From NCBI RefSeq assembly GCF_000009905.1, contig NC_006177.1, positions 2,046,001 through 2,110,000 of the forward strand: DNA of 64,000 bases, in the 5' to 3' direction. This DNA is from Symbiobacterium thermophilum IAM 14863 (lineage in GTDB: Bacteria > Bacillota > Sulfobacillia > Symbiobacteriales > Symbiobacteriaceae). The notes beneath the pieces are model-generated. The model saw only the letters and a program-made list of their open reading frames with translations, did not search any database and had not been told where the DNA came from. Every line of letters starts with the position of its first letter. The first letter of the stretch is position 1. Shown piece by piece: positions 21,198 through 64,000 of the stretch. Made by a program: the position numbers and the translations under genes.

Positions 21198-21221
21198 TGG
21201 CGGTCGACCTCCCCTTTGAGC

Positions 21222-21336
21222 GGTGAGCGGTGGGCCGTGGGCGATGCGCCGTGGGCGGTGCGCCGTGGGCGGTGCGCCGTGGGCGGTGCGCCGTGGGCGG
21301 TGGGCGGTGCGCGCTGGGCGGCGGGCGGCGGGCGGT
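21222..21336. repeat. Heptamer-based tandem repeat (14-bp unit GGTGCGCCGTGGGC)
   Basis: Three perfect 14-bp copies of GGTGCGCCGTGGGC (21257-21298) flanked by degenerate copies. The underlying unit is 7 bp (GGYGSGC). The array lies directly upstream of the DUF192 gene. Slippage would change the spacing of its promoter. It opens false long reading frames on both strands. Confidence 0.85.
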
Positions 21337-21457: not shown

Positions 21458-21611
21458 GAGCCATGCCGGGCACACCACTGTGCCCGGCATGGCTCATCCA
21501 GGTACGCCGTTGTACCCGCAGCGCGGCACCTCGTTGTGCCTCTGGTGCGGCAGGCGCCCCGTTGCGCCGCCGCACCGGATCACCGCCCGTTCGGGCACGC
21601 CGTTGTGCCCG
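21458..21611. repeat. Array of small hairpins with conserved CGTT-ended loops
   Basis: A perfect 17-bp hairpin at 21458-21495 (arms 21458-21474 and 21479-21495, loop CCAC) is followed by four short hairpins. These are GGTAC-GCCGTT-GTACC (21501-21516), GGCAC-CTCGTT-GTGCC (21525-21540), GGCGC-CCCGTT-GCGCC (21553-21568) and CGGGCAC-GCCGTT-GTGCCCG (21592-21611). The loops keep CGTT while the stems change in compensating pairs. The third is nested in a longer stem (GGTGCGGC/GCCGCACC). Similar elements occur at 27959 and 28450. The function is unknown. Confidence 0.75.
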
Positions 21612-22196
21612 TCATTCCCCCGCTTCCGGCCGCCAGACCCGCGGCTCATCCACGGCCCGCTCGCCGTCCCACCGGAGCAGGACCACGGCGCCGGGAGGAA
21701 CCCGCCAGTCCCAGAGTCCCCTGCCGGTCAGGTGGGCAAGCACCGTGCGGATCACACCGCCGTGTGTGACCACGACGGCCCCGTCCTGCCGGGGCAGGGC
21801 GGCCAGGGCCCGGCTCCGCAGCGACGCCAGGCTCTCCCCGCCCGGGGGCGGCGCGTGTTCCGGGTCGGCCAGCCAGGCGGCGAGCTCCTCGGGCCACTGC
21901 CGGGCGATCTCCTCGTACGTCAGGCCGGAGAAGCGCCCGAAGTTCAGTTCCCGCAGCCTTGGGTCGGGCGCGGGCGTGAGCCCCGTGGCCCTCCCGATCC
22001 GCTCGGCGGTCTGGCGGCACCGCATGAGGTCGCTGGTGCGCATGCCGGTGAGCCGAAACCGGCTCAGGTAACGCGCAGCCGCTTCCGCCTGAGCGAGCCC
22101 GTCTGCGCTGAGCGGGTGCTCCTCCCAGCCGACGTACCGCCCTTCCGCGTTGGCAGCCGTCGCGCCGTGGCGCACCAGGAAGAGGGTGCAGGTCAC
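21612..22196 (-). CDS. cobC: Histidine phosphatase family protein, probable alpha-ribazole phosphatase
   Basis: A 194-residue histidine phosphatase with the catalytic RHG (R9-H10-G11 in LVRHGATAAN), ELNFGRFSGLTYEEI and the second histidine in VVVTHGGVIRTV. CobC removes the phosphate from alpha-ribazole phosphate or adenosylcobalamin phosphate. The assignment to CobC rests on its position as the last gene of a corrinoid operon. Its start overlaps the cobD stop by 4 bases. Confidence 0.85.
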   Translation of the reverse strand: MTCTLFLVRHGATAANAEGRYVGWEEHPLSADGLAQAEAAARYLSRFRLTGMRTSDLMRCRQTAERIGRATGLTPAPDPRLRELNFGRFSGLTYEEIARQWPEELAAWLADPEHAPPPGGESLASLRSRALAALPRQDGAVVVTHGGVIRTVLAHLTGRGLWDWRVPPGAVVLLRWDGERAVDEPRVWRPEAGE

Positions 22197-23242
22197 GGCG
22201 CCTCCTCCTCCAGGATGCTGCGCAGCAGGGCGATCAGCCGCCGGTTCTCTGGCCGGGTGCGCACAGCAAGCCGCATGTGATGCTCCGTCAGCCCGGCAAA
22301 GGAGCGGCAGTCGCGTATCAGCACACCCCGGGGTCCCAGCCGCCGCTGGATCTCGTGGGCGGGCAGCGGCGCCCGCACCAGCACGAAGTTGGCAGATGGC
22401 GGATAGACGATAAACCCCGGCAGGCTCGCCAGCTGCTCGGCGAGATAGGCCCGTTCCACGGCCACCCAGTGCCGGGTGCGGGCGGCGTAGGCCTCATCGC
22501 TCAGGGCCGCGAGCGCAGCGGCCTGCGCCAGACTGTTCACGCTCCAGGGGTCGCGCGCCGCGTCCAACTCGGCCACCATCCAGCGCGGGGCCACCGCATA
22601 CCCGACCCGCAGTCCGGGCAGGGCGAAAAACTTCGTGAGCGACCGCACCACGACCAGGTTGCAGCGGTGGGGCACACGGGCGATCACGGAGCCGGCCTCG
22701 CCCGCGGCTGTGAGGTCGATGAAGGCCTCGTCGATGAGCAGGGTCGCCTCCGTCCGCTCCGCCGCCCGCAGGAGCTGCTCCGGCGTGAACAGGTGGCCGG
22801 TGGGATTGTGGGGGTTGCAGATGATCCACCAGTCCCCCCGCCCCAGCTGGGGCGGCGGATCGGTGCGGTCGTGCGCGACGGGCAGCAGCTCGGCCCCTGC
22901 AGCCCGGGCGGCGCGCGCGTACTCCGCAAAGCCGGGTTCGGGCAGTGCCACCCGGAAGCCTGACGCCAGGCGGAGCAGCAGGTACAGCACCTCCGCCGCG
23001 CCGTTTCCCACCAGCACCATCGACTCGTCCACCTGGTGACGCCGGGCCAGGGCGGCCCGCAGCCGGCGGGCGAATGGCTCGGGGTAGTGCGCGATTCCGG
23101 CTAGGGCCGCCTGCGCCGCGGCCACCGCGCCCGCGGGCGGGCCCAGCGGGTTGATGTTGGCGCTGAAGTCGCAGAAACCCCCTGGCGGCTCGCCCCAGCG
23201 GGCCCGCGCCACAGCCAGGTCGCCGCCGTGCAGGGTCATCAT
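22193..23242 (-). CDS. cobD: Threonine-phosphate decarboxylase (aminotransferase fold I)
   Basis: A PLP enzyme that decarboxylates threonine phosphate to aminopropanol phosphate, the linker of the cobalamin nucleotide loop. It is 349 residues from the ATG at 23242, which has GGGAGG 8 bases upstream. The PLP lysine is in VVRSLTKFFALPGLRVGYA, and the CNPHNPTG motif is present. HisC paralogues look similar; the cobalamin context and the HGGD...DFSANINPLGPP opening favour CobD. The stop overlaps cobC. Confidence 0.9.
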   Translation of the reverse strand: MMTLHGGDLAVARARWGEPPGGFCDFSANINPLGPPAGAVAAAQAALAGIAHYPEPFARRLRAALARRHQVDESMVLVGNGAAEVLYLLLRLASGFRVALPEPGFAEYARAARAAGAELLPVAHDRTDPPPQLGRGDWWIICNPHNPTGHLFTPEQLLRAAERTEATLLIDEAFIDLTAAGEAGSVIARVPHRCNLVVVRSLTKFFALPGLRVGYAVAPRWMVAELDAARDPWSVNSLAQAAALAALSDEAYAARTRHWVAVERAYLAEQLASLPGFIVYPPSANFVLVRAPLPAHEIQRRLGPRGVLIRDCRSFAGLTEHHMRLAVRTRPENRRLIALLRSILEEEAP

Positions 23243-24051
23243 CCTGTCCACCTCCCTGTCTGCAGAGCGAAGCAGGCGATCGCCGCCAGTTCCGCCAGCT
23301 CGCACAAGGCTCCGTAAGTGTCGCCGGTCAGGCCGCCGAGTCGCCGCGAGAGCCACCGCCCGCCGGCCAGACCGACCCCGAGGGCGGCGAGCCACGCGCC
23401 CAGCCCCCGCAGGGCGGAGACCGTCACGGCTGCCGTCAGGCCCGGCGGGGCTGCCGGGCTCTGCCCCCACCACGCCAGGAGCCCCGGCACCCCGACAGCC
23501 AGCGTGAGGCCGCCCAGAAGCGCCCCGGCCAGCTGCGCCCCGCCCACGTGCCGGCCGAAGGCAGCGCCCATCCCTTCGGCACGGGCGGGCGGCCAGCGCA
23601 CCGCCGCCAGGGGGATCACCATCCGCCCCACGGCCGGGGCCACCAGCAGGGCGGCTGCTGCCCGCGGCGGTGTCAGCTCCAGCAGCAGGGCCCACCGCAG
23701 CATCAGGGCCAGGGCTCCCGCCGCTGCGCCCATCACGCCGACCCGGGAATCTTTCATGATCTCCAGCATCCGCTCGCGGCTCCGGGCGGAGAGCAGCCCG
23801 TCGGCGGCGTCCATCAGGCCGTCCAGGTGGACCGCACCGGTCGCACCGAGGCCCGCGGCCACGGCCGCGACGCCCGCCACGGCAGGCCCGAAGAGCAGCC
23901 TGCCCGCAAGCCAGGCGATCAGGCAGATGGCCCCCACCAGCAGGCCCACCAGGGGGAAGAACCCCGCCGCGCGGCCGAGATCCCGCATGTAGTCCGGGGT
24001 CTCAAGTCGGCCCATGGGAATCCGGGTCAGAAAGGAGAGCGCGATGCGCAC
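23239..24051 (-). CDS. cobS: Cobalamin synthase (adenosylcobinamide-GDP ribazoletransferase)
   Basis: A multi-pass membrane enzyme that joins adenosylcobinamide-GDP to alpha-ribazole (phosphate). It is 270 residues. The family signatures are FLTRIPM near the N-terminus, HLDGLMDAADGL, MKDSRVGVMG and GGLTGDTYGALCEL. It has about six hydrophobic helices. The start is a GTG at 24051 with GAGGGGG upstream. It overlaps cobD by 4 bases. Confidence 0.95.
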   Translation of the reverse strand: MRIALSFLTRIPMGRLETPDYMRDLGRAAGFFPLVGLLVGAICLIAWLAGRLLFGPAVAGVAAVAAGLGATGAVHLDGLMDAADGLLSARSRERMLEIMKDSRVGVMGAAAGALALMLRWALLLELTPPRAAAALLVAPAVGRMVIPLAAVRWPPARAEGMGAAFGRHVGGAQLAGALLGGLTLAVGVPGLLAWWGQSPAAPPGLTAAVTVSALRGLGAWLAALGVGLAGGRWLSRRLGGLTGDTYGALCELAELAAIACFALQTGRWTG

Positions 24052-24063
24052 CCGGTCACCCCC

Positions 24064-25017
24064 TCACGCCAAGAACCAGAGCGTCAGCGCCCCGAGGCCC
24101 GTCCCGAGCAGGGTCGCCAGCCACATCCACCGCACCGCCTGCACGATGTGACCCGGCTGCAGCATCTCCAGCGGATCGCCCATGTGGGCCCGCCGCTCCG
24201 GCCTCCCGCCGTAGTGGTTGAGGCCGCCCAGCTGCACCCTCAGCAGGGCCGCCATCGCCGCCTCCGGCCAGCCGCTGTTGGGGCTGGGGTGGCGCGGCGC
24301 GTCCCGCAGGGCGATGCGGAGGGCCTTCGGGCTCAGGCCGGCCAGGGCCAGCAGCAGGGCGCTGAGCCGGGCAGGCGCCAGGTTGACCAGATCATCCAGC
24401 CGGGCGGAGGCCCAGCCGAACTCCAGGTAGCGCTCGTTCCGGTGGCCGACCATCGAATCCAGGGTGTTGGCGGCCTTGTAGGCCATCGCCAGCGGCGCGC
24501 CGCCGACCAGCCCCCAGAAGAGCGGCGCGATCACGCCGTCGCAGGTGGACTCGGCCACCGTCTCCACCGTCGCCCGGGTGACCTCGGCGGCGTCCAGCCC
24601 GGCCGTGTCCCTGCCGACGATGTGCGCCACCCGGCGCCGCGCCTCGCTGAGGTCCCCGGCCTTCAGCGGGCGGTAGACCGCCAGTGCGTGATCGGCCAGA
24701 GAGCGGGCCGCCAGGCAGGTGCTGAGGAGCCAGACCTCGGCGGCCACACCGAGCCAGGGATGCAGGGCCGCGGCCAGCCGGATGAGCCCCCAGGTGAGGC
24801 CCCAGGCCGCGACCGGCAGCAGGAGGGCCAGCAGCACCCCGGCCGCCCGCAGCGGCAGCCGCGTCCGCCGCAGTCGCGGCTCGGCCCACGCAATCACCCG
24901 GCCCATGAGCGCCACCGGATGGGGCAGCCGGGCGGGATCGCCCACCGCCGCGTCCACCGCGAGGGCCGCCAGCGGCAGGTACCAGGGCGCCGCGGGAAAC
25001 ATTTCCGCCACGCTCAC
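24064..25017 (-). CDS. cbiB: Adenosylcobinamide-phosphate synthase (CbiB/CobD type)
   Basis: A membrane enzyme that attaches aminopropanol phosphate to adenosylcobyric acid. It is 317 residues from the GTG at 25017, which overlaps the cobU stop (GTGA). Characteristic pieces are DAAVGDPARLPHPVALMGRVI, VETVAESTCDGVIAPLFW and YKAANTLDSMVGHRNERYLEFGW (split here across two lines of the protein). Several transmembrane helices are evident. Alternative starts at 25011 (GTG) and 25002 (ATG) are possible. Confidence 0.93.
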   Translation of the reverse strand: MSVAEMFPAAPWYLPLAALAVDAAVGDPARLPHPVALMGRVIAWAEPRLRRTRLPLRAAGVLLALLLPVAAWGLTWGLIRLAAALHPWLGVAAEVWLLSTCLAARSLADHALAVYRPLKAGDLSEARRRVAHIVGRDTAGLDAAEVTRATVETVAESTCDGVIAPLFWGLVGGAPLAMAYKAANTLDSMVGHRNERYLEFGWASARLDDLVNLAPARLSALLLALAGLSPKALRIALRDAPRHPSPNSGWPEAAMAALLRVQLGGLNHYGGRPERRAHMGDPLEMLQPGHIVQAVRWMWLATLLGTGLGALTLWFLA

Positions 25018-25571
25018 TCCGGGATCACCGTACCGATCCGCCTCAGGTCGACGGCGATACCGGCCACGCAGGCGTAGACCTGGTCCGCCTCCCGCGCCAG
25101 CCACTGATTCAGCCGCCCCTGGGCGTCGCGGAAGAGCCGCCCGAGCCGGTGCTCGGGCACCAGCCCCGCCCCGACCTCGTTGGACACGGCGATGAGCAGC
25201 GCGCCGCGCTCACGGGTCAGGCTGAGCAGCTGCGCCAGCTCCTGCCGGGCCCGGGCTTCGAACCCCTCCTCCCCCTGCAGCAGGTGGTTGGAGATGAGCA
25301 GGGTCACGCAGTCCAGCAGCACCGCATCCGCCGGCGCCTCGTGCAGGGCCTGCGCCAGGGCGGCCGCCGGCCTGAGCTCTTCCTCCACCGTGCGCCAGTG
25401 GGCCGGACGGCTCGCCCGGTGCCGGGCGATGCGGTCGGCCATCTCCGCATCGCCCGCCCGGCCGGTGGCCAGATAGACCACCCGCCGGAACGGCGAAGCC
25501 AAATGCTCCGCCCAGCGGCTCTTGCCGCTCCGCGCGCCGCCTAGCACCAGAATCACACCCGCCATGCGCAT
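25014..25571 (-). CDS. cobU: Adenosylcobinamide kinase / phosphate guanylyltransferase
   Basis: A bifunctional enzyme that phosphorylates adenosylcobinamide and then adds GMP. It is 185 residues from the ATG at 25571, which has AAGGGAG 7 bases upstream. Walker A is GGARSGKS near residue 15, and the family motif VLLDCVTLLISNHL follows. NEVGAGLVPEHRLGRLFRD also matches. A longer frame to 25652 overlaps the upstream btuF stop and lacks homology. Confidence 0.93.
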   Translation of the reverse strand: MRMAGVILVLGGARSGKSRWAEHLASPFRRVVYLATGRAGDAEMADRIARHRASRPAHWRTVEEELRPAAALAQALHEAPADAVLLDCVTLLISNHLLQGEEGFEARARQELAQLLSLTRERGALLIAVSNEVGAGLVPEHRLGRLFRDAQGRLNQWLAREADQVYACVAGIAVDLRRIGTVIPE

Positions 25572-25609
25572 CGCCTCGCTCCCTTCGGGAAAGCGCCCCA
25601 TCGGCCCGG

Positions 25610-26626
25610 TCACTGCTCGAAGAGCTCCGGGTGGAGATTCCGGGCGAACCACTGGAGCCCCTGAATCAGGCGGGGGCCGGGGCGCACCACGATGTTCTCA
25701 TCCGGCAGCCCCAGCACCCGGCCTTCCTTCACCGCCGCGATCGACTCCCAGCCAGGCCGCTCCCGGACCTCCCGGGCCGCGGCCTCCGACGCGGTGACGA
25801 TGATGTCGGGGTCTGCGGATACCAGTTCCTCCAGCGAGATAACCGGCCAGGGCTCGCCGGCGAAGGATGCGGCGTTGGTGCCGCCGGCGATGCGGATCAT
25901 GTCGTCGATGAAGGAGCCCGGGCCGGCGGTGGTGATGGGATCGTGCCAGACCTGGTAGAACACCACGGGCCTGTTCTCCGCCAGCGCGACCTTCCCGGCG
26001 ATGGCCTCCACCTCACGCTGCATGTCCGCCACGAGCGCCTCCGCGGCCTCCTGGGCGTTCACCACCTGGCCCAGGGCGAGGATCCCCTCGTACAGCTCCT
26101 CAAAGTTGGAGGGGTTCAGCACGAAGGTGGTGAGCCCATAATCGTTCTCCAGCTTCTCCCGCGCCTCCACGGAGCCGCTGGTCAGGAGGAGCAGGTCGGG
26201 CTCCAGCGAGATGATCTTCTCGTAGTCGGGCGAGTAGAAACCGCCGATGGACTCGATCTCCTGCGCCTCGGGGGGATAGTCGTCCCAGTCGGAGCGCCCG
26301 ACCAGCAGGTCGCCCTTGCCGAGCGCGAACATCAGTTCCGTGTTGGAGGGGGCGACGGAGATCACCCGCCTCGGCTCGGCGGCGATGGTCACCTGCCGGC
26401 CGGCGCCGTCGGTAATCGTGAGGGGGTAGGCCGTCTGCCGGGGTTCGGCCTGCCCGGCGCTCCCCGTGCCGGCCGCCCGGTCTGCGGGCTGGTCGCTCGA
26501 CTCAGCCGCCGGGGCTGCGGGCGGGCTGTCCGGGTTCACCGCCGTCTGGCGGCCTGCGCAGCCTGTCAGGATGCCGACCACGAGCAGAAGGGAAAGCATG
26601 AGGGCTGCCAGCGAACGCTTCTTCAT
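25610..26626 (-). CDS. btuF: Corrinoid ABC transporter substrate-binding lipoprotein (copy 1)
   Basis: A 338-residue periplasmic-binding-type lipoprotein. The lipobox is LTGC at about residues 20-23. The mature part contains the BtuF/FecB family pattern AEPRRVISVAPSNTELMFALG, followed by LVGRSDWDDYPPEA and a conserved ending RPGPRLIQGLQWFARNLHPELF. It has no permease beside it and sits inside the salvage operon. It is closely similar to the second copy at 31296-32333 and may share its BtuCD. B12 specificity is inferred from riboswitch and context. Confidence 0.88.
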   Translation of the reverse strand: MKKRSLAALMLSLLLVVGILTGCAGRQTAVNPDSPPAAPAAESSDQPADRAAGTGSAGQAEPRQTAYPLTITDGAGRQVTIAAEPRRVISVAPSNTELMFALGKGDLLVGRSDWDDYPPEAQEIESIGGFYSPDYEKIISLEPDLLLLTSGSVEAREKLENDYGLTTFVLNPSNFEELYEGILALGQVVNAQEAAEALVADMQREVEAIAGKVALAENRPVVFYQVWHDPITTAGPGSFIDDMIRIAGGTNAASFAGEPWPVISLEELVSADPDIIVTASEAAAREVRERPGWESIAAVKEGRVLGLPDENIVVRPGPRLIQGLQWFARNLHPELFEQ

Positions 26627-26708
26627 GGGATGTACCTCCGTAAGTCCACTGTTCTACTTAAATGAAGATGCCGCTGAGGGCTGGTAAGCAGATCCGCCAA
26701 CCATCGTC

Positions 26709-27440
26709 CTATCGAAGCTGCGCGACGACCGCCCACGGCTGGGTGAGCGTGAGGGCCAGCCCCTGCAGGGCCGACGGCGCCGCCGCGACCAGCAGACAGG
26801 TGACCGGACCCGCCGACTTCCCGAGGGGGAAACCCGCTTCCGCCGGGGCCCACTCCACCTCCAGCCCCGCGCTGGCGGCGAGATCCTCCGCCTCGGCGCG
26901 GATCCCACGGGAGCCCACGGGCAACAGGTCGTGCACCAGCGGGTCGCCGGCGAGCCGCCGGACCAGGGGAAGATCGGGCAGTTCGGGGTCATCCAGCCGC
27001 ACCTCGGCCCCGACCTTCGGCCGCCCGATGGCGACGACCAGGTCGCCCGGCCGCGCCGTGCGCAGCGACCGGCCCGGGGCCAGGTAACCGATGGCGGTCA
27101 CCCCCAGGCCCGTCTGGACCGTCGGAATGTTCTTCTCGAAGGAGCCGTTGATCTGGTCGGCGGAAAGGCCCGCCAGGGCCGCCTCGTCGCAGATGCCCTG
27201 CAGGATCTCCCGCCCGGTGGGATCAGGCTCCACGCAGGTGTTGTTCACCAGGTGGAGCGGCTGCGCGCCGGCGGCGAGCAGATCCATGAGGGCCACCCGG
27301 GCAGTGAACCGCCCGATGACGTACCCGGCCACCCGAATCACGTCGCGCTCCTTCGGCCCGATGCCGCCGGCGGCATCGCAGGCGATGACCAGCCGGCCGC
27401 CGCACGGCAGGTCCACCAGGGTCAGGTCCCGCCACCTCAT
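26709..27440 (-). CDS. cblS: AIR-synthase-like protein, probable alpha-ribazole kinase CblS
   Basis: A 243-residue protein with the PurM/ThiL-like N-terminal pattern LVIACDAAGGIGPKERD and NNTCVEPDPTGREILQGI. In Listeria and Geobacillus such proteins next to CblT phosphorylate alpha-ribazole to alpha-ribazole phosphate, bypassing CobT. The neighbouring ECF S-component upstream, with a 4-base ATGA overlap, and the cobalamin operon support this call. No cobT is in the window. A generic AIR-synthase relative is the alternative. Confidence 0.75.
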   Translation of the reverse strand: MRWRDLTLVDLPCGGRLVIACDAAGGIGPKERDVIRVAGYVIGRFTARVALMDLLAAGAQPLHLVNNTCVEPDPTGREILQGICDEAALAGLSADQINGSFEKNIPTVQTGLGVTAIGYLAPGRSLRTARPGDLVVAIGRPKVGAEVRLDDPELPDLPLVRRLAGDPLVHDLLPVGSRGIRAEAEDLAASAGLEVEWAPAEAGFPLGKSAGPVTCLLVAAAPSALQGLALTLTQPWAVVAQLR

Positions 27441-27922
27441 CCCTCGACCCCCGCCCGCCTCAGGCCCAGCACCACCAGCAGCGCGACGGCTGCGTTGGCT
27501 CCCGCAGCGACGGTGAGCGGGAGGGCCAGGGCCGCGAACAGACCGAGCCCCAGCGGGTTTGGCAGCAGAGCCAGCAGGGCCGGTGCCAGGATGCCGTTGG
27601 CCACCACCAGCACCGCCGCGCCGGCCACCAGACCGAAGCGCCGGGCTGCAAGCCCGCCCAGGCAGCCCACGCCGGCCATGGCCGCGGCGCTGGCCAGATG
27701 AAACGGCAGGGTGAGCGGAAAGCCGGTGACGGCCGCCACGGCCACATGCCCCAGACCGCAGATCAGGGCGCCGGCCGCGGGGCCCATGAGGAGCGCAGCC
27801 ACGAAGCCGGCCATCGCGTCGAAGGCGATGGAGCTCGGCCCCAACTTGATGTAGGCGCCCAGCACGCTGAGGGCCAGCAGGATTCCGAGCCTCACCAGGG
27901 TGTTTGTCCTCGCCAGCAGCAC
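27437..27922 (-). CDS. cblT: ECF transporter S component, probable alpha-ribazole transporter CblT
   Basis: A 161-residue protein with five or six hydrophobic helices. The pattern RLGILLALSVLGAYIKLGP...SIAFDAMAGFVAALLMGP matches S components of energy-coupling-factor transporters, which bind a vitamin precursor in the membrane. The GTG start at 27922 has AGGAGG 7 bases upstream. Pairing with CblS and control by a cobalamin riboswitch point to alpha-ribazole. The shared ECF energising module (EcfA/A'/T) is not in this window. Confidence 0.75.
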   Translation of the reverse strand: MLLARTNTLVRLGILLALSVLGAYIKLGPSSIAFDAMAGFVAALLMGPAAGALICGLGHVAVAAVTGFPLTLPFHLASAAAMAGVGCLGGLAARRFGLVAGAAVLVVANGILAPALLALLPNPLGLGLFAALALPLTVAAGANAAVALLVVLGLRRAGVEG

Positions 27923-27956
27923 GAGCAGACCTCCTCTTCCCAGTAGCAATCGCTTG

Positions 27957-28130
27957 GTGGGCACGCCGTTGTGCCCGTACTCGGCGGCGCCTCGTTGCGC
28001 CCTGCTTTCGCCGGTGCCAGTCCGGCAGGCTACTGTGCACCGATGCTTTGGTGCTCCGATTCCGCTGGTCGTCGTCAGGTGTTCCAGGGGCACGCCGTTG
28101 TGCCCGGCCTCTCAGGCACCGCGCTGTGAC
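27957..28130. repeat. Second group of CGTT-loop hairpins
   Basis: Hairpins GGGCAC-GCCGTT-GTGCCC (27959-27976), GGCGC-CTCGTT-GCGCC (27986-28001) and GGGCAC-GCCGTT-GTGCCC (28088-28105), plus a degenerate one near 28114. They match those at 21501-21611, including the order of a GCCGTT-loop element followed about 25 bases later by a CTCGTT-loop element. They lie in the cblT leader between a riboswitch terminator and the start codon. Confidence 0.75.
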
Positions 28131-28141
28131 CGAGAGACCGA

Positions 28142-28171
28142 TAAAGAAAACCCCCGGGCTCAGCCCGAGGG
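28142..28171 (-). terminator. Riboswitch-associated terminator upstream of cblT
   Basis: A 9-bp stem (GCCCGAGGG/CCCCCGGGC in plus-strand terms, 28163-28171 with 28151-28159) with a 3-base loop, followed on the minus strand by TTTTCTTT. It lies downstream of the cobalamin aptamer and is its likely expression platform. Confidence 0.8.
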
Positions 28172-28244
28172 AAAGAAATGACAGATCGAACGCATGGACA
28201 GCCATGCGAACGCCTCACCCTTTCACCCGAGGGTCGAGCAGCGC

Positions 28245-28425
28245 CAGCGCGGCAGGCAGGTTTCCTGACTCCGGATCCTCGCCGCCCCTCCGCCTTCCCG
28301 GCCTTCGGGCCAGTGGCACATCCCGAGGGGCGACTCCCCGTCACAGTGGCGGGACCGTGCCGGACTTGCACCGGCTTCCCTTTTAACTCCCGACCGCAGG
28401 GTCGGGAGCACCTGCCGCTGTTTGC
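28245..28425 (-). promoter_or_regulatory. Cobalamin riboswitch 1 (upstream of cblT-cblS-btuF-cobUSDC operon)
   Basis: The minus strand shows the aptamer core: GGAAGCCGGTGCAAGTCCGGC, then the B12 box GCCACTGTGACGG (around 28339-28352), and the 3' arm GTCAGGAAACCTGCC near 28255-28270. It is followed by a conserved GGGTGAAAGGG segment and a terminator. I see no good promoter just upstream, so it may lie within read-through transcripts from the cobQ-like gene. Confidence 0.95.
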
Positions 28426-28449
28426 TCTATGCAGTTGCCCTCCCAAACC

Positions 28450-28465
28450 GGCACGCTGTTGTGCC
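28450..28465. repeat. Isolated hairpin of the CGTT-loop family
   Basis: GGCAC-GCTGTT-GTGCC, with one loop change from the family consensus. It lies between the cobQ-like gene and the first cobalamin riboswitch, in the same orientation as the other members. Confidence 0.6.
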
Positions 28466-28525
28466 CAGAACCCGCATGGGTCGTTCCCTTCGTCCGGCAC
28501 CTCGCCGCACCGGAGCGCCCGCCCG

Positions 28526-29374
28526 TCACCGTTGCCGGGCAAGCAGCTCCAGCACCTGGTCCACCCGGGCGTGCCGGCGCACGTGGTCGGCCAGCCGGTC
28601 CAGGGCCCCCTCCCGCGCCGCAGCGGACGGCGCCGGGGCGCTCACATCGGTCAGGCCCGCCGAGTCCTCCTCATCGAGGCCCAGGTCGGCCAGGTAGGGA
28701 ATCACGCCGATCACCGGCAGGCCGGTGCGCTCCTCCAGCCAGCGCACGCCGTCCTCGAAGAGCGAGGCGTCGCCCCGGAAGCGGTTGATCACCAGCCCCT
28801 TCACCCGGGCCCGCTCGGCCGGGGGCAGCAGCTCCAGGGTGCCCACGATCGAGGCGAACACCCCGCCCCGGTCGATGTCGGCCACCAGCAGCACGTCGGC
28901 GTCCAGCAGTTCCGCGGTCTTCATGTTGGCCAGGTCACGGTCCCGCAGGTTCACCTCCACCGGCGAGCCGGCCCCCTCGGCCACAATCACCTCGAACTCT
29001 GCCTCCAGCCGGGCAATGGCCTCCCGCACCGCCTGCAGGGCCACAGTGTGCAGATCGGCCGTGTACTGCTGCCAGGCCATCTCGCCCAGCGACCGGCCGT
29101 TGACGATCACCTCGGAGCGGAGCTCCGTCCGGGGCAGCAGCATCACCGGGTTCATCTCCACCCGGGGGGCCACCCCCGCCGCCTGCGCCTGCATGGCCTG
29201 CACCACGCTGATGCGCAGCCCGCCCTCGATCTCCGTCGCGGCGCAGGACATGTTCTGCGCCTTGAACGGCGCCACCCGGAAGCCCTCCTGGCGCAGGATG
29301 CGGCAGAAGGCCGCGGCCAGGGTCGACTTGCCCACGCTGGATGCGGTGCCCAGGAACATCAACGAACGTGCCAT
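28526..29374 (-). CDS. cobQ: CobQ-like cobyric acid synthase lacking the glutaminase domain
   Basis: Cobyric acid synthase amidates four corrin side chains using ATP and glutamine. This 282-residue protein has the N-terminal ATPase domain: the P-loop MFLGTASSVGKSTLAAAF, the CobQ signature FKAQNMS, VEMNPVMLLP and ADIDRGGVFASIVGT. The family is normally about 500 residues with a C-terminal class I glutamine amidotransferase domain containing a Cys nucleophile. That domain is absent. After LGLDEEDSAGL the sequence jumps to a tail (LDRLADHVRRHARVDQVLELL) like the usual extreme C-terminus, which suggests internal deletion. It is the last gene of the btuFCD operon. The ATG at 29374 has AGAGGTG upstream. 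Confidence 0.85.
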   Translation of the reverse strand: MARSLMFLGTASSVGKSTLAAAFCRILRQEGFRVAPFKAQNMSCAATEIEGGLRISVVQAMQAQAAGVAPRVEMNPVMLLPRTELRSEVIVNGRSLGEMAWQQYTADLHTVALQAVREAIARLEAEFEVIVAEGAGSPVEVNLRDRDLANMKTAELLDADVLLVADIDRGGVFASIVGTLELLPPAERARVKGLVINRFRGDASLFEDGVRWLEERTGLPVIGVIPYLADLGLDEEDSAGLTDVSAPAPSAAAREGALDRLADHVRRHARVDQVLELLARQR

Positions 29375-32436: not shown

Positions 32437-32504
32437 ATGCGCGACAGCACGGCAATGCAAGGCTACGCATAACGCCCCCCCTTTCACCCGAAGGCTGAGT
32501 GACG

Positions 32505-32685
32505 TTGCAGCGACAGGCAGGTCTCCTGACTTCGGATCATCGCCTTCCCCCGCCTTCCCAGCCTTCCGGCCAGTGGCGCATCGTGGGGACGGCTCCCCGT
32601 CACAGTGGCGGGACCGTGCCGGACTTGCACCGGCTTCCCTTTTAACTCCCGGAGCGCGGGGCCGGGAGCACCTGCCGCTGTGCCC
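32505..32685 (-). promoter_or_regulatory. Cobalamin riboswitch 2 (upstream of btuFCD-cobQ)
   Basis: Nearly the same core as riboswitch 1: GGAAGCCGGTGCAAGTCCGGC, the B12 box CCGCCACTGTGACGG (around 32600-32613) and the 3' arm GTCAGGAGACCTGCC near 32515-32530. The conserved GGGTGAAAGG segment follows, then the terminator at 32403-32436. Binding of cobalamin would stop btuFCD transcription. Confidence 0.95.
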
Positions 32686-32703
32686 GTATTCACCTGTGTC
32701 TCC

Positions 32704-62821: not shown

Positions 62822-64000
62822 TTGAGTCGCAGAAACCGTTCGCAACAGACGGGCCCGAGGGCCGCGGCGATCGTCGGCCTCGGCCTGGGCGTTTGGCTGG
62901 CGCTCTGGTGGACAGGCCGGGCGGACTTCTGGACGACCGCCGCCGCAGCCGCGGGGACCGCCCTGCTCCTGCTCCTCAACCACATGGCGGGGCAGCGCGG
63001 ACCGGCCGCAGCGGCCCCGGGCCGGGCCGATGCGGAGGAGCCGCACGGTCCGTCCGAGGACGCCGCCGGCAGGAGGCTGCGCACGCCCAACGCCGTGCGC
63101 CCCGAGTACAACACCCTTCCCGACTCGTGGCCGTCCAAGACCTCCCGGGTACCGGCCGCCGCACCGTCCCCTGCCCGCCGGCGACCCGTCCCCGCGGCGG
63201 ACCAGGAGCACACCCATGCCTCCGCGCCCGGTCCGGTGCCGTCACGGGTCCCGCCCCCGCTGCCGCCGCCCCTGTTCGGCAACCCGGAATCCCGACCGAT
63301 CCTGGCGGGGATGGAGCACACCGTCCGCCAGCGACCGCGGATTGCCGGCCCGGAGGACGAGACTGCGGAGGCCGCATCCCCGTCGATGGGGGCGGTTCCT
63401 TCCTCCCCGGGCGCCGAATCCGGGGAGGAAGCGCCGCCGACCGCGGGCACCTTCGCCTCCGGCGTCCCCGTCGGCCCGTCGGGGATCCTGGCCGCAGACC
63501 CCGGGGGGAATGCGGCCGGGGCATCTCCGGAGTTGGTGGCCGGGGCACCTCCGGAGGTGGCCGCCGCGGCGCTGCCGGAAGCGCCTGCACCCGACCTCCC
63601 GCAGCCGCTCCGGCTTCCGGGATTGACGGAAGCGGAGCGGGCTGCCCTGGGGCTCGCGGAGGCCGGGTCAGGGCCTGACCCGGTTCCCGGGTCGACGGCC
63701 GGGTCTGCTCCGGGGCCTGCTATCGGGTCGCCTGCCGGACCTGTTTCCGGGCCTGGTTTCGGGCCAGCTACTGTGCCTGCACCCGGACCTGCTTTCGAGT
63801 CGACCGCCAAGTCTGCTCAAAGACCTGCTTTCGGACCGGCCCCTGGGCCTGCACTTGGGTCGGCTTCCGTGTCTGATCCCGAGCCGGTTATCAGGCCAGC
63901 TCCCGCACCTGCACCCGGACCTGCTTTCGGGTCAACCGCCGAGTCTGCTCAAAGACCTGCTTTCGGACCGGCCCCTGGGCGTGCTCCCGGACCGGCTTTC
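62822..64000 (+). CDS. Proline-rich membrane protein, continues past the right edge
   Basis: An open frame from TTG 62822 to the end of the window (393 codons, no stop). GGGGGG lies 7 bases upstream of the TTG. The N-terminus has two hydrophobic helices (AAIVGLGLGVWLALWW and TTAAAAAGTALLLLLNHM). A long Pro/Ala/Gly-rich soluble part follows. From 63779 it contains a 44-residue repeat (ESTAKSAQRPAFGPAPGPA) whose copies are 132 bases apart. The composition resembles wall-spanning or coat proteins. I do not recognise the family. Confidence 0.55.
   Translation, partial: MSRRNRSQQTGPRAAAIVGLGLGVWLALWWTGRADFWTTAAAAAGTALLLLLNHMAGQRGPAAAAPGRADAEEPHGPSEDAAGRRLRTPNAVRPEYNTLPDSWPSKTSRVPAAAPSPARRRPVPAADQEHTHASAPGPVPSRVPPPLPPPLFGNPESRPILAGMEHTVRQRPRIAGPEDETAEAASPSMGAVPSSPGAESGEEAPPTAGTFASGVPVGPSGILAADPGGNAAGASPELVAGAPPEVAAAALPEAPAPDLPQPLRLPGLTEAERAALGLAEAGSGPDPVPGSTAGSAPGPAIGSPAGPVSGPGFGPATVPAPGPAFESTAKSAQRPAFGPAPGPALGSASVSDPEPVIRPAPAPAPGPAFGSTAESAQRPAFGPAPGRAPGPAF
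63779..63996 (+). repeat. 132-bp imperfect direct repeat in the proline-rich gene
   Basis: GCACCCGGACCTGCTTTCG begins at 63779 and again at 63911, and the next about 70 bases match with a few changes. The period is 44 codons. The second copy runs to the window edge. Confidence 0.85.

Follow-up and report, generated by a model that had tools for sequence, protein, structure and literature searches.

Hairpins in a cobalamin operon mRNA as a candidate riboswitch-gated sponge for an ANTAR regulator in Symbiobacterium thermophilum

In a 64,000-nucleotide stretch of the Symbiobacterium thermophilum IAM 14863 genome (NC_006177.1, positions 2,046,001 to 2,110,000; hereafter the window, whose own numbering is used below unless stated otherwise), a family of small hairpins is found at both ends of a cobalamin (cob) operon, in its leader and in its 3' untranslated region (UTR). 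These hairpins are very probably targets of an ANTAR (EutV/NasR-type) regulator, its binding being predicted from their sequence, and we propose, with a probability of roughly 0.6, that their main function is that of a sponge for this regulator, gated by adenosylcobalamin (AdoCbl). The fuller statement, that the mRNA of the B12-synthesis operon doubles as a riboswitch-gated sponge, with decoys in leader and 3' UTR, and titrates an ethanolamine-pathway regulator in trans from outside the ethanolamine utilisation (eut) locus, is put forward a little less firmly, as somewhat better than an even chance.

Hairpin pairs with ANTAR-type loops

A sequence-only reading of the window had reported at least seven hairpins at intergenic places, and all eight perfect ones (A1, A2, B1, B2, C2, D1, D2, and E2) were located there as stated, every copy in the same direction relative to the transcript. 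The plus-strand form in which they had been read, with the loop GCCGTT, found no support: the meaningful strand is minus, which carries the genes and the two cobalamin riboswitches, and the loop conserved on it is AACGRS. Perfect hairpins with a loop NNNGTT and a stem of at least 5 bp number nine on one strand of the window (the eight of the family and an unrelated one at 63735) and one on the other; when the loop is restricted to [GC][CT][CT]GTT, with the same stem limit, the strands give 9 vs 0, compared with 0.2 in random sequence that keeps the dinucleotide composition.

All members are on the minus strand. In the leader, C1 (28115–28131, GGTCAC/AGCGCG/GTGCC, with one U.C mismatch or bulge and a stem that continues outward to ~28141/28105) is separated by a 9-nt linker from C2 (28088–28105, GGGCAC/AACGGC/GTGCCC), and the ANTAR-type hexaloop hairpin D1 (27986–28001, GGCGC/AACGAG/GCGCC) by another 9 nt from D2 (27959–27976, GGGCAC/AACGGC/GTGCCC), so that pair C spans 28131–28088 and pair D 28001–27959. 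At the other end of the operon, A1 (21592–21611, CGGGCAC/AACGGC/GTGCCCG) stands directly 3' of the cobC stop and is followed by A2 (21553–21568, GGCGC/AACGGG/GCGCC, its stem continuing to 21544–21576 beyond a bulged U), by pair B (21540–21501), made up of B1 (21525–21540, GGCAC/AACGAG/GTGCC, also an ANTAR-type hexaloop hairpin) and, after an 8-nt linker, B2 (21501–21516, GGTAC/AACGGC/GTACC), and finally by F (21458–21495), a 17-bp hairpin that closes the tail array, has no U tract, and whose top can be read as GGGCAC/AGTGGT/GTGCCC, with A at loop position 1 and G at position 4. Two more hairpins lie further upstream: E2 (28450–28466, GGCAC/AACAGC/GTGCC), a degenerate copy 5' of the riboswitch, and E1 (28494–28513, CCGGTGC/GGCGAG/GTGCCGG, with two G.U pairs), a weak and doubtful member directly 3' of the cobQ stop. 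Three of these, the C1 hairpin with its AGCGCG loop, F, and the weak E1, had been missed by the earlier inventory, correct as it was for the eight perfect ones.

The loop is AACGGC in A1, B2, C2, and D2, AACGAG in B1 and D1, AACGGG in A2, AGCGCG in C1, and AACAGC in E2. A at position 1 and G at position 4 are thus present in A1, A2, B1, B2, C1, C2, D1, and D2; E1 has the G at position 4 and lacks the A at position 1, and E2, counted as a member from its plus-strand loop GCTGTT, does exist as a hairpin but carries A in place of the otherwise fixed G. The unit is the hairpin pair and not the single hairpin, as had been supposed, and the alternation every 25 bases or so was borne out, with loop starts 24–26 nt apart within pairs B, C, and D. 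The stems change by paired substitutions, again as claimed: in an alignment of 15 distinct hairpins, which mixes paralogues of this genome with hairpins of others, 97.3% of the cells are paired, both sides change in four of the five pairs, and the covariation score is 0.537 vs 0.133 in shuffles (0/500).

These properties match those of the ANTAR targets of EutV, NasR, and AmiR (Ramesh 2012, PMC3369931), which consist of two short hairpins with hexaloops bearing A at position 1 and G at position 4. In the eutP site of Enterococcus faecalis the loop residues A29 and A53 are 24 apart, the A-U/C-G closing pairs are not swappable, and the linkers of the eut leaders in this species measure 5–12 nt (PMC3369931). 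Likewise, the cob hairpins have mostly A-U/C-G closing pairs (six of the eight perfect ones, the other two having G-C/C-G), and pairs B, C, and D each consist of two neighbouring hairpins whose stems have 3 bp or more (C1 with its one mismatch or bulge), joined by 8–9 nt linkers within the E. faecalis range, which pair A exceeds. They differ from the described targets in the lack of an overlapping terminator at pairs A–D, in an array of up to five hairpins, and in one 23-nt linker. A descriptor written from the literature only (two stems of at least 5 bp, loops A..G.., linker 3–14) found four pairs in the window, all of them on the minus strand and at the two intergenic sites already flagged, while 150 dinucleotide shuffles gave a mean of 0.007 and never reached four. 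Furthermore, exactly one protein of the genome scores above threshold as an ANTAR protein (receiver and ANTAR domains, E 4e-17), and its gene, that of a response regulator, maps at genome position ~2184.5 kb. The suggestion of an RNA or protein binding element therefore holds as regards the fixed loop, the covarying stems, and the association with cobalamin genes, a protein site being most likely, while the very probable identity as an ANTAR target had escaped it.

Riboswitch, terminator, and two classes of ANTAR site

The cob operon runs from the gene of an ECF transporter substrate-specific component (ECF-S; 27437–27928, minus strand; Pfam PF12822), the first gene after the leader, to that of a cobC-like alpha-ribazole phosphatase (21612–22196, minus; PF00300, with TIGR03162 as top NCBIfam match under its cut-off), and the flanking cob/btu genes are also on the minus strand. 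Its leader contains a cobalamin riboswitch aptamer (28238–28430, minus; Rfam RF00174, 121 bits) followed by the intrinsic terminator of the riboswitch, T1 (28143–28171, minus; CCCTCGGGCTGAGCCCGGGGG TTTTCTTT), and pairs C and D come directly downstream of both on the same strand. The tail array, in the order A1-A2-B1-B2-F, starts right after the cobC-like stop (21612) and places five hairpins in the 3' UTR. With an aptamer and an intrinsic terminator before the ECF-S/cob operon, the leader resembles other RF00174 leaders of cob/btu operons, including that of G001, a genome of the same genus (99% complete) where a terminator with a changed stem stands at the same place and the ECF-S orthologue starts at the same place behind it. 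It differs in that ~190 nt with two ANTAR pairs lie here between terminator and first gene, compared with ~20 nt from terminator to Shine–Dalgarno in G001, whose operon also has a different tail.

Within the eut locus of the same genome, ~126 kb from the cob hairpins and between a bacterial microcompartment (BMC) shell gene and eutA-eutB, the arrangement GCGGAC/AACGGC/GTCCGC ACCC GGGC/AATGGG/GCCC overlaps a terminator. This site upstream of eutA is predicted to be a canonical ANTAR antitermination site, and its AACGGC loop is common to the cob hairpins. The orthologous eutA site of the relative G002 has the loops AAAGGC and AAAGAG and follows an EutV-like ANTAR gene. A group II intron adjoins the eut locus (L109 4256–6051).

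Folding of each site together with 75 nt of downstream sequence separated two classes. At the seven reference sites (the own eutA site, that of G002, the glnR sites of G048 and G029, a second G048 site, and sites of G041 and G028), the second hairpin (P2) has a probability of 0.00 in every case, its 3' arm pairing downstream into a terminator-like stem. At all four cob pairs, A to D, P2 is preformed (0.80–1.00), its 3' arm is unpaired downstream, and no strong U tract follows; no intrinsic terminator overlapping P2 was found at these pairs in the predicted folds. The degenerate E site gave a P2 probability of 0.14. The cob pairs are therefore not ordinary antitermination sites.

We also considered that the hairpins are ANTAR targets acting in cis, the regulator activating or adjusting the cob operon (for example, by protecting the leader against Rho, by helping the first gene to be translated, or by making the mRNA more stable at its two ends), with B12 then being produced on ethanolamine or nitrogen demand, an explanation that we regard as unlikely. 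The sites do lie at both ends of one operon, the end of D2 is ~20–25 nt 5' of the ECF-S Shine–Dalgarno, and actinobacterial ANTAR sites near ribosome-binding sites have been proposed to affect translation (PMC8164766). However, pairs A–D have no overlapping terminator, the predicted folds show no sequestered Shine–Dalgarno, and C and D cannot antiterminate T1, as both come after it. In addition, cis-activation is, to our knowledge, not a known role of an ANTAR array in a 3' UTR.

The same order of parts is found in the sponge RNAs EutX of E. faecalis and Rli55 of Listeria (PMC5821096), where an AdoCbl riboswitch is followed by its terminator and then by ANTAR hexaloop hairpins with no terminator of their own, in genomes that have an ANTAR antitermination site before eutA. 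In contrast, these are noncoding RNAs, transcribed from a promoter of their own and located, in the species studied, within or close to the eut locus, whereas the hairpins described here are inside a protein-coding operon, with two pairs in the leader downstream of the terminator and five more hairpins in the 3' UTR, and do not form a separate noncoding RNA. For this reason, the cob array would work like EutX rather than be an EutX. If so, with plentiful AdoCbl the riboswitch would end transcription at T1 and the hairpins would not be made, leaving the ANTAR regulator free for antitermination of the eut operon upstream of eutA; with scarce AdoCbl, readthrough of T1 would produce a cob mRNA with the two leader pairs and the five hairpins after cobC, which would titrate the regulator. 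The AdoCbl-requiring ethanolamine ammonia-lyase would thereby stay unexpressed until B12 had been made. As EutV binds single hexaloops (PMC8934654), arrays and uneven spacing could still titrate a regulator of its type. The hairpins, their covariation, the ANTAR loops and spacing, the order of riboswitch and terminator, the absence of terminator overlap at A–D, the single ANTAR protein, and the eutA site are all read from sequence; from this layout we infer the sponge function, together with the binding, the titration, the direction of the effect, ligand-promoted termination, the ANTAR signal involved, and the contribution of the 3' UTR array.

Other features of the locus include a second cobalamin riboswitch (32499–32690, minus strand) and an 18-nt segment between C and D (28010–28027, minus) that is complementary at 17 of 18 positions to the riboswitch core (28358–28375). 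Of all minus-strand segments in the window, it is predicted to form the strongest duplex with that core (−37.6 kcal/mol), and it is possibly part of the expression platform. The CobQ-like open reading frame at 28526–29458 matches residues 2–241 of the 480 of cobyric acid synthase, that is, the first half only, and looks like a conserved half-length form, since the G001 orthologue aligns across the same length. Between the cob tail and a DUF192 gene, 14-bp tandem repeats (GTGGGCGGTGCGCC-like) occupy 21217–21330.

Searches for further copies and distribution in relatives

A covariance model (R2) built only from the window hairpins gave 54.2, 60.4, and 63.2 bits for pairs B, C, and D, respectively, and 17.4 bits for E2 (genome-wide E 3.9). 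Run on the whole genome, a single contig of 3,566,135 bases, it detected nothing above noise outside the cob locus, the lower matches (at most 20.9 bits) lacking dual hairpins with A at position 1 and G at position 4. This genome-wide check, which the sequence-only reading had called for, thus yielded no extra copies, and consequently the hairpins are not scattered in coding regions. The result bears on the idea that they are a dispersed mobile repeat, of the repetitive extragenic palindromic or miniature inverted-repeat transposable element type, landed by chance at the cob operon. It could explain why the ~190 nt that separate T1 from the first gene are absent from G001 and why the copies are alike, but exact, degenerate-pattern, and covariance searches found no copy elsewhere in the 3.57 Mb genome, the orientation relative to the transcript is single, and the loops follow ANTAR rules. 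The idea was dropped for want of other copies and is considered very improbable.

The model was also run on 59 further relatives, with the own genome and G002 not counted. The best outside match, in G041 (30.7 bits), was set aside as not dual-hairpin-like in appearance. The second and third best were the glnR-glnA leaders of G048 and G060, which belong to another genus and are ANTAR-positive; both leaders show a promoter-P1-P2-terminator order, AACGGC as the loop of P1 as well as of P2, and, 2.8 kb away, an ANTAR gene, and the sister genome G029 has the same glnR site with the P1 loop AAGGGC. A canonical ANTAR antitermination site is seen 5' of glnR-glnA-ANTAR in three genomes of one genus, which belongs to the same taxonomic class as S. 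thermophilum (L112 ~2640–2690; L066; L125 ~978). A contig scan with a degenerate dual pattern returned 21 loci, most of them chance matches or repeats in coding sequence, the sole system-linked one being L087, which corresponds to the near-identical G002 contig; L084, L088, and L096 are hairpin-like in look. At the eut locus of G016, which has two EutB genes and ANTAR, neither dual hairpins nor a riboswitch was found by the criteria applied.

Among the closest genomes, the hairpins, ANTAR, and the eut genes are together present in S. thermophilum and G002 and together absent in G001. In the latter, the cob operon is present (66–90% protein identity) with its riboswitch and the equivalent terminator, and no hairpin segment, ANTAR gene, or EutB gene was found; in G002, EutA was found and EutB was not, eutA being at a contig end. 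These data bear on a further explanation, by which the hairpins are recognised by some other RNA-binding protein or are plain mRNA-stabilising stems with convergent ANTAR-like loops. ANTAR binding is a prediction here and E1 and E2 break the loop rule, but loop, closing pairs, and pair spacing all fit ANTAR targets, the same loop recurs at the own eutA site and at the glnR sites of ANTAR-positive genomes, and the sole same-genus genome with no ANTAR gene has no hairpins either, so that we judge this explanation improbable. The cob block is ~99% identical between S. thermophilum and G002, and identity falls to ~78–95% outside it, with the step at hairpin F (21495; L033 ~7785); the block has probably been exchanged recently between the two species.

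Weight of the sponge reading and its meaning

Several points weigh against the sponge reading. Given the near-identity of the cob blocks, the hairpins of S. thermophilum and G002 do not count as independent cases of conservation, and a single relative, G001, provides the contrast between presence and absence. E2 lapses from the loop rule, and the 23-nt linker of pair A is beyond the known range. The EutV-like ANTAR gene that G002 has between the BMC gene and eutA (L109 7938–8490 vs L047) is missing from this genome, and the sole ANTAR protein here is nearer to the second G002 copy (62% vs 41% identity), for which reasons its link to the eutA site is drawn by inference only. Moreover, the tail array would contribute only if transcripts are full-length.

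AdoCbl-gated sponging of EutV is already known from a few gut Firmicutes, where it takes the form of a small noncoding RNA encoded within or close to the eut loci. In 2018, a review (PMC5821096) pointed out that the position of such a sponge is in theory free, and raised the question of whether one exists elsewhere in species that have EutV but lack a eut riboswitch. As part of a cob operon in a different lineage, the array described here is a concrete candidate of this kind, and it offers a search rule, namely, terminator-free ANTAR hairpins behind the cobalamin riboswitches of cob operons. If the proposal is true, the B12-synthesis mRNA would itself be the signal that B12 is lacking.

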